Shown in pieces: positions 22,419 to 24,400 of a DNA stretch of 54,140 nucleotides. The translations under genes were made by a program, and so were the position numbers. Origin of the DNA: Polyangia bacterium. Its GTDB lineage: Bacteria > Myxococcota_A > Polyangia > Fen-1088. The stretch's first letter is position 1; each line of letters begins with the position of its first letter. The notes under the pieces are model-generated. The model saw nothing but the letters and a program-made list of their open reading frames with translations. It was not told the DNA's origin and searched no databases. The stretch covers positions 1 through 54,140 of the forward strand of contig DATATI010000015.1 in assembly GCA_036268875.1 (NCBI GenBank), written 5' to 3'.

Positions 22419-23558
22419 ATGGGTTCGGCTTTCGCCTTCGCGTTGCTGGGACGCGACGCCACCTCGGGCGCGCGGCGCGGCCGCCTGCACACCGCGCGCG
22501 GGGTGATCGAGACGCCGGCCTTCATGCCGGTGGGCACGCGCGCCACGGTCACCGGTTTGACGCCCACTGATCTGAAGGCCGTTGGCGCGCCCATCCTGCT
22601 GGCGAACACGTATCACTTGCTGCTCCGTCCCGGCGCCGAGCTGTTTCGTCGCCTGGGCGGCATCCACAACTTCATGCGCTGGGCAGGCCCGGTGCTGACT
22701 GATTCGGGTGGCTATCAGATCTTTTCGCTGCCCGGCGATCGCGACATCGCCGAATCGGGCGCGCGCTTTCGCAGCTACGTCGACGGCCGCATCCACCACC
22801 TGTCACCCGAACAATCGATCGACATGCAGACGGCGATCGGCTCCGACATCATGATGGTGCTGGACGAATGCATCAACGCCACCGTCGACGAAAGCGCGGT
22901 GCGCGCGGCGATGGAGCGCACGCACCGGTGGGCGCTGCGCAGCCTGGCCGCGCGGTCCAATCCCGAACAGGCGCTGTTCGCCATCGTGCAAGGCGGCCTG
23001 GTCCCGTCGCTGCGGGAAGAATCGGCGCGCTTCCTGACAGCGCATCCGTTCGACGGCTTCGCCATCGGCGGCCTGGCGGTGGGCGACACCCGCGCCCAGC
23101 GTGAAGACATGACCGCGTTCGCCGCCCAGCTTTTGCCGGCGTATTTGCCCCGTTATCTGATGGGCGTGGGCACGCCGCCCGATCTGCTGTACGCCATCGG
23201 CTGCGGCGTGGACATGTTCGACTGCGTGCTGCCCACGCACCTGGCCTGGCAGGGGACGGCGTTCACCTCGACCGGGCGGGTGCGCATCACCCGCGGGCCG
23301 CACCGCCTGGCCGAAGAATCACTGGATGCGCGCTGCGCGTGCTCGACCTGCGCCACGTATTCGCGAGCCTATCTTTATCACCTCTACAAGTGCAGCGAAC
23401 CGCTGGGTCCGCGCCTGCTGTCCATTCACAACCTGCACCACTATCTGGATCTGATGCGGCAAGCGCGCGACGCCATCGACGCCGGCGCATACGCCGCCTT
23501 CGCACGCGCCCGCTTGCTGGAGATCGACCGGCACGAACACGGTCAGGCGCGGGCGTGA
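22419..23558 (+). CDS. tgt: queuine tRNA-ribosyltransferase
   Basis: Tgt exchanges guanine at wobble position 34 of GUN-anticodon tRNAs for the queuosine precursor preQ1. Visible motifs are [13 protein letters not shown] near the start, [10 protein letters not shown] with the active-site Asp, IVQGG and FAIGGLAVG in substrate binding, [22 protein letters not shown] with the nucleophile Asp, and the zinc site CACSTC followed by the His in SIHNLHHY. The length of 379 residues is typical. Its TGA overlaps the GTG start of the next gene, so the two are translationally coupled. No queA or que synthesis genes are in the window. Confidence 0.95.
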
Positions 23559-24400
23559 ATCACGAAGTGGTGCGCACGCGCGGCGGCGCGCTGGCCATGC
23601 GCAGCCTTGATGCCGGCGAGGTCATGCACCCCGGCGTCGGTCCTTTGATCGAGGCGCAGCGTCTTTACGTGGAGCAATCGCGCCTGGCCGAGCGCCTGCG
23701 CGCCGGCCCGACGGCGACGCTGGTGGTGTTCGACGTCGGACTGGGCGCGGGATCAAACGCCGTCGCGGCGTGGGCGGTGTCCGAGTCGCTGGCCGGAACA
23801 AGCGCGGTGCGGCTCGAGCTGGTGAGTTTCGAACGCGATCTGGGCGCCTTGCAGGTGGCGCTGGCGCATGAAGTGGCCTTCGGTCTGACCGGCGATGCGG
23901 GCGTGGCGGCGCGGGCGCTGTTGGCCGACGGCCGTCACGACAGCGCGCGCACGTCGTGGCGGCTGGTGCGCGGCGACGTCCTTGAAGCGCTGGCGGGCGA
24001 ATCGGCGCGGGCCGACCTGATTTTCTGGGATCCGTTTTCGCCGCGGGCCAACCCGGCGTTGTGGACGGTGGCGGCCTTCGCGGCGGCGCGCCGGGCGGCG
24101 GGCCCGCGCGCCACGCTGTTCACGTACAGCGCCTCGACGACGGTGCGGGTGGCGATGCTGCTCGGCGGTTGGGCAGTGGGCATCGGCGATGGCATCGGCG
24201 AAAAGGGGCAGACCACCTCCGCCGCCGTCGACGTGCGCGATCTGCGGCGGCCAATCGATCGAACGTGGCTGCGACGGCTGGATCGGCCGGACGCGCGCCT
24301 GCCGGACGATTCGCCCGTTGATGCGCTGGCGCGCGTGCGGGCGGCGCCGCAATTTTCCGCGGTCGCCGATCTCATCCATCCGCTGAGCAGCATCGTTTGA
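23555..24400 (+). CDS. MnmC-like tRNA wobble-uridine methyltransferase domain protein
   Basis: The 281-residue protein starts at the GTG that overlaps the tgt stop (GTGA). [18 protein letters not shown] is followed by the SAM motif [17 protein letters not shown], an acidic SFERD, and [14 protein letters not shown]. These match the methyltransferase half of MnmC, which finishes mnm5(s2)U34 in tRNA. The FAD-dependent oxidase half of bifunctional MnmC is absent, as in single-domain MnmD-type proteins. [12 protein letters not shown] near the C-terminus is also conserved in the family. Being coupled to tgt supports a tRNA position-34 role. The exact substrate (nm5U or another base) is inference. 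Confidence 0.75.

Follow-up and report, generated by a model that had tools for sequence, protein, structure and literature searches.

The bacterial tRNA-guanine transglycosylase (TGT; Tgt, TIGR00430) is known from Zymomonas, E. coli and Thermotoga. For the Zymomonas enzyme, PMC3660597 reports that C158 supports preQ1 affinity, that V233 limits the room for the bulky queuine, that Glu235 senses preQ1 through a peptide flip, and that the pocket can be tuned. PMC13416341 names E. coli D264, the counterpart of Asp280, as the nucleophile. The methyltransferase MnmC2 occurs as a free protein in Aquifex (3vyw) and as the N-terminal domain of E. coli MnmC, and its partner is the FAD oxidase MnmC1. 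According to PMC3648344, Asp178 of E. coli MnmC contacts the amino group of S-adenosylmethionine (SAM). A 2020 review (PMC7694415) gives preQ0, preQ1, oQ, Q, GalQ, ManQ, GluQ and G+ as the 7-deazaguanosine modifications of RNA, and a methylated member is absent from that list. QueA, QueG, QueH and GluQRS, which act on preQ1- or Q-tRNA, work downstream of TGT on the 7-deazaguanine side chain, as we propose below for the methyltransferase MT2, but they are not homologous to it. To our knowledge, there is no methyltransferase among them and none of them is fused to TGT.

A second TGT gene overlaps a methyltransferase gene

The window analyzed here is a stretch of 54,140 nucleotides from a Polyangia bacterium (genome G000). 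Its forward strand carries a gene for a second TGT paralog, TGT2 (22419..23558; ATG start, TGA stop, 379 aa), and a gene for an MnmC2-like SAM-dependent methyltransferase, MT2 (23555..24400; GTG start, TGA stop, 281 aa). As read from the sequence, the two share the bases GTGA (23555..23558, forward strand), formed by the GTG start of MT2 and the TGA stop of TGT2. An earlier note on this DNA had described this overlap, and both reading frames lie where it placed them. It had also called the second product MnmC-like, which agrees with the match to the Pfam family Methyltransf_30 (63.2 bits, cut-off 22) and with the predicted fold. The other TGT gene of the genome (G000:C74:124006-125037) adjoins queA (122852-123943), which TGT2 does not.

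The pair is conserved and repeatedly fused

Among 39 related genomes, including the window's own, a strong Methyltransf_30 hit was found in eight, and in 8/8 a tgt gene lies against it (ten genomes with 21.7-27.7 bits were set aside as not real). In two of them (G031 and G033), TGT and MT2 are in one open frame. When 377 Myxococcota genomes were searched with the window methyltransferase, 49 had a match; every place scoring at least 84 bits either had a tgt linked to it or lay within a tgt-linked gene, and the seven weaker places fetched (63 bits or less) had no tgt nearby. This survey scored up to six candidates per genome, so MT2 absences are provisional, and seven genomes were rechecked with all candidates; two genomes of the window's class with 20.5 and 22.3 bits were again set aside as not real. 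Together with G002 and G003 from the search of the 39 relatives, the survey gave 26 loci besides the window, 11 of them fused.

In named genomes, 342 relatives were found, of which the best 80 were kept. At 65 of these MT2 loci a TGT lies on the MT2 strand, fused in 13 cases and separate in 52. Among the 15 MT2 loci without one, six begin no more than 400 bases from a contig end. The other nine of the 80 lack a TGT within 4 kb and lie away from a contig end, which counts against the joint enzyme system proposed below. Eight of the nine genomes have a second TGT elsewhere (five of these eight TGTs fall outside the motif typing); in three genomes, all Corallococcus, it shares a contig with MT2, 11-12 kb away.

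Both surveys combined yielded 83 distinct TGT2-MT2 loci, 24 of them fused in one frame. The adjacency, which the earlier note did not know as a standard operon, is therefore not unique to this genome. The pairs span Myxococcota and Verrucomicrobiota, and Bdellovibrionota carry the two genes apart; hosts include Myxococcus, Archangium, Pyxidicoccus, Hyalangium, Anaeromyxobacter (fused) and Nannocystis, and fused forms also occur in Opitutaceae. One fused ORF matches both Pfam families. Fusion maps to three or more distinct positions in the tree; an AlphaFold2 model of a fused protein (pTM 0.54) is too weak to place the domains. The junction varies among loci between overlap, spacer and fusion, and the exact GTGA is not the conserved part.

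Adjacency in 8/8 hit-bearing genomes and at 65 of the 80 MT2 loci kept from named genomes indicates that the pairing is beyond chance, and repeated fusion argues that the two products are functionally linked. We are highly confident that TGT2 and MT2 are linked in this way and differ from standard Tgt and MnmC2. The fusions are most simply read as two domains that act one after the other on a single substrate. In preQ1 the amine belongs to an aminomethyl group borne by a ring carbon, the kind of group that MnmC2 methylates on 5-aminomethyluridine, which suggests N-methyl-preQ1 as the product. We thus tentatively propose, with a little less than even confidence, that TGT2 inserts preQ1 into RNA and that MT2 methylates its amine. 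The two genes would form one enzyme system, apart from queuosine and mnm5U synthesis. TGT2 would exchange a guanine of some RNA for preQ1 (7-aminomethyl-7-deazaguanine) by the usual covalent TGT mechanism, and MT2 would then move a methyl group from SAM onto the primary amine of the inserted base, giving 7-methylaminomethyl-7-deazaguanosine.

TGT2 is usually an additional copy

Where MT2 is present, the TGT count of a genome usually exceeds that of its relatives by one, as read from the rows of the 377-genome survey. The window's class comprises 104 genomes. Among the 18 with a strong MT2, 17 have two or three TGTs and the remaining one (G378) has only TGT2. Among the 86 without a strong MT2, 82 have one TGT, two have none and two show two matches. 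In family f40, three TGTs are present in 6/6 genomes with MT2 and two in 16/16 genomes without it. The 39 relatives follow the same pattern: allowing for fragments and weak remote matches, each genome that lacks the methyltransferase has just one full TGT, except for one in which no TGT was found (G014) and one with pieces of a second TGT at a contig end (G008). In all eight pair genomes of the 39, queA adjoins the ordinary TGT.

Three genomes count against an obligatory partnership: G322 has a real TGT2, yet none of the 91 candidates scored there is an MT2; G169 carries a second TGT2 that no MT2 accompanies; and G403 has MT2 and a single TGT of the ordinary type. The two TGT matches of G174 are ordinary-type fragments on two contigs.

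We also considered whether any second TGT tracks MT2. This is false outside the window's class, where many genomes lack MT2 and yet carry two TGTs. In the regions sampled, the second TGT of those genomes (TGTb) is, like TGT2, a paralog additional to the ordinary one; it differs in keeping the RxxR motif discussed below and in falling into another clade (support 100/100; 20 regions sampled from at least 11 genomes), and the 10 regions inspected had no MT2 match. TGTb, whose motif reads PTRxARSG or a close variant, occurs commonly in other Myxococcota classes (loci L266, L268, L270, L272, L274, L276, L277, L280, L282 and L283).

TGT2 keeps the preQ1 pocket and lacks an arginine pair

TGT2 shares the full domain of bacterial TGTs. 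In profile searches, the window protein matches Pfam TGT with 465 bits and TIGR00430 with 435.6 bits (cut-off 306.75) over its full length (residues 16-365). We aligned 94 TGT2 rows, of which 85 are distinct and nine are the same locus repeated from two collections. The catalytic Asp102 and Asp280 and the zinc ligands C318, C320, C323 and H349 are kept in 94/94 rows, and the preQ1-pocket residues C158, Q203, G230, L231 and V233 are invariant in all of them (Zymomonas numbering). In the window, the preQ1-selectivity residue Cys158 corresponds to C151 (22869..22871), Val233 to V221 (23079..23081) and the nucleophile Asp280 to D268 (23220..23222), all on the forward strand.

In contrast to the ordinary TGTs (TGT1), in which R286 and R289 are both present in 28/28 rows, 0/94 TGT2 rows have both, and one is kept in three rows. 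The window has HLAW in place of RxxR (codons 274-277, 23238..23249, forward strand), with His and Trp at the positions of Arg286 and Arg289. These arginines are probably contacts to the anticodon loop, in keeping with the Z. mobilis TGT-RNA structure; the TGT literature searched gave no confirmation of an anticodon-binding role. In the tree, the pair-linked TGTs form one group apart from the ordinary ones (support 100/100; 47 versus 28 rows), which recurs with 100/100 once the third TGT type is added; the tree is midpoint-rooted, and to call this group a clade presumes a root outside TGT2.

Because TGT2 is a second copy without the two arginines of every ordinary TGT examined, the action on guanine-34 that the earlier note ascribed to it cannot be assumed, nor with it the exchange of G34 in tRNAs with GUN anticodons. 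Retention of the pocket together with loss of RxxR suggests that preQ1 is still the base used by TGT2 and that its RNA target has changed. One pocket residue counts against our proposal: Glu235 is Asp in 55/94 rows, including the window, and TGT2 also differs from ordinary TGT around the pocket rim. These changes, and the tunability of the TGT pocket reported in PMC3660597, would fit a different order of steps, in which MT2 methylates free preQ1 and TGT2 then inserts the methylated base. We consider this order quite unlikely, since the substrates of MnmC2 relatives are RNA and the presence of C158 and V233 in 94/94 rows argues for plain preQ1.

MT2 groups apart from MnmC2

MT2 shares with MnmC2 the Pfam family, the fold and a SAM-binding Asp. 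Its AlphaFold2 model (pLDDT 94.5) has Aquifex MnmC2 (3vyw) as the nearest solved fold (Z 26.1, rmsd 2.8 over 239 residues), with E. coli MnmC at Z 23.8-25.0 and spermidine synthases lower (Z 18.6 and less). The SAM residue D159 (24029..24031, forward strand), the equivalent of the Asp178 of E. coli MnmC that contacts the SAM amino group, is invariant in the 49/49 rows of our methyltransferase alignment, which holds 49 of the 78 references and the window (L090 was omitted as incomplete). Glu93 of the window protein corresponds to the SAM residue Glu101 of E. coli, and most MT2 rows have Glu or Asp there.

The differences from MnmC2 are also clear. At 24% identity, the window MT2 scores 82.4 bits against the MnmC2 equivalog NF033855, under its cut-off of 136, and five other MT2 proteins score 59.6-83.7 bits, all under the cut-off. 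Among five MnmC2-type controls from Myxococcota, 4/5 pass (138.6-185.9 bits) and the fifth reaches 128.5. A basic KR motif towards the C-terminus of the domain, an observation of this analysis rather than a curated feature, is present in 12/12 MnmC2 rows and in 3/48 readable MT2 rows (L128 and L191 were unreadable for this count); the window lacks it and has a TGxKxxTT-like stretch instead. The tree separates MT2 from the MnmC2 clade with support 99/99, with long MnmC2 branches as a caution. In addition, each of the Oligoflexales genomes G401-G403 has MT2 plus a second, canonical-type gene, and the presence of both within the same three genomes argues for separate roles.

The basic residues of both parent families are thus lost in the same partners, which suggests that the usual tRNA contacts were left. 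If so, N-methyl-preQ1, an undescribed nucleoside, would be made outside the four GUN tRNAs, in other RNAs, by a re-targeted TGT joined to a re-targeted MnmC2. We regard this as possible, though doubtful. The same double loss would suit a pair acting outside tRNA altogether, on another RNA, on DNA, or in the synthesis of a deazapurine natural product. We find this last reading very unlikely: TGT2 is still full-length and matches the equivalog model of tRNA TGTs, and biosynthetic neighbours are not conserved beyond close kin.

Supply of substrates

Known MnmC2, which methylates nm5(s2)U34, acts after MnmE and MnmG, which provide its substrate nm5U. In the 18/18 genomes of the window's family (f1, G000 included), searches for MnmE returned GTPase-domain matches only, and nothing for MnmG exceeded 41 bits; the completeness of G000, G002 and G006 is 96-97%. 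There is thus no known route to nm5U in this family. QueF, which makes preQ1, is encoded in all eight pair genomes of the 39 relatives, so that the window genome can make preQ1 while nm5U has no known source. Outside the family, the pair genomes G027, G031, G033 and G035 have MnmE and MnmG, which counts against our proposal in that nm5U may be the MT2 substrate there. As an aside, family f1 seemingly does without MnmE and MnmG, and the usual xm5 modification may be missing from its wobble U34.

These data bear on the reading of MT2 as a true MnmC2 that makes mnm5U34, its expression being tied to that of tgt so that two wobble modifications are coupled. The shared Pfam family and fold, the kept SAM residue and the MnmE and MnmG of some pair genomes speak for it. 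We nevertheless judge it highly improbable, because searches of the window's family turned up neither MnmE nor MnmG, MT2 falls under a cut-off that 4/5 of the other Myxococcota MnmC2-type proteins pass and forms a separate clade, both gene types coexist within Oligoflexales genomes, and the partner is a non-standard TGT. The earlier note's idea of linked wobble enzymes therefore survives in part: the repeated fusions uphold a functional link, and the proposed coupling of guanine-34 to uridine-34, with the second product probably acting on the latter, is not supported, given the score, the tree position, the non-standard TGT and the failure to find mnmE and mnmG elsewhere in G000.

The queuosine pathway raises another alternative, in which TGT2 inserts preQ1 and the methyl group from MT2 goes elsewhere on that RNA or on a later product: to a nucleotide next to it, to a nitrogen of the ring or, once QueA has acted, to the secondary amine of queuosine. 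Fusion and linkage need only a shared substrate RNA, and queA is present in 38/39 relatives, so queuosine could arise from TGT2 products. Most genomes, however, have queA without MT2, queA adjoins the ordinary TGT rather than TGT2, and MnmC2 relatives act on a primary amine, which is exactly what preQ1 has. We therefore view this alternative as unlikely. Under our preferred proposal, methylation of the preQ1 amine, the product would probably no longer be open to QueA.

If the bolder reading with both halves re-targeted is true, 7-deazaguanine chemistry in RNA would have a third branch, in addition to those of queuosine and archaeosine. The conserved, repeatedly fused pair predicts a methylated 7-deazaguanosine that mass spectrometry could test, and it occurs in the culturable genera Myxococcus, Archangium, Anaeromyxobacter and Nannocystis. 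Our literature searches found no report of a TGT-MT2 pair or fusion; they left subscription papers mostly uncovered and are weak in this respect. For annotation, 'tgt' next to 'mnmC' does not by itself imply mnm5U, and an extra tgt copy is not necessarily redundant.

Neighbouring genes and atypical loci

A conserved third gene was sought by comparing the ORFs lying up to 4 kb from each of 92 pair loci and was rejected: the unit is the pair alone. The families that recur there come down to ATPase-type matches of mixed strand and, among close Myxococcaceae, to synteny. Rfam searches of window positions 15000-32000 gave no match near the pair, riboswitch or other RNA, at the gathering score. Promoter and terminator scans of the locus gave nothing above shuffles, and RNA folding at the junction was no better than shuffles. 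A plasmid search returned only six distant Caballeronia records.

Directly after the pair, on the opposite strand, lies a PMT-type protein O-mannosyltransferase (24414-25727), and positions 26512-28929 encode a ComEC/Rec2-type DNA uptake protein with Competence, DUF4131 and beta-lactamase fold domains. Elsewhere, some loci depart from the common arrangement. In Oligoflexales genome G402, TGT2 lies in a 581-aa frame with a weak MT2 match at the same locus (L234; 31%, E 3e-8), perhaps a decayed fused domain, and a full MT2 is found elsewhere in that genome. A record titled Comamonas sp. KCTC 72670 (L177) carries a Myxococcus-type TGT2-MT2 pair and may be mislabelled or contaminated. Genome G133 carries the whole pair twice (L101 and L102).
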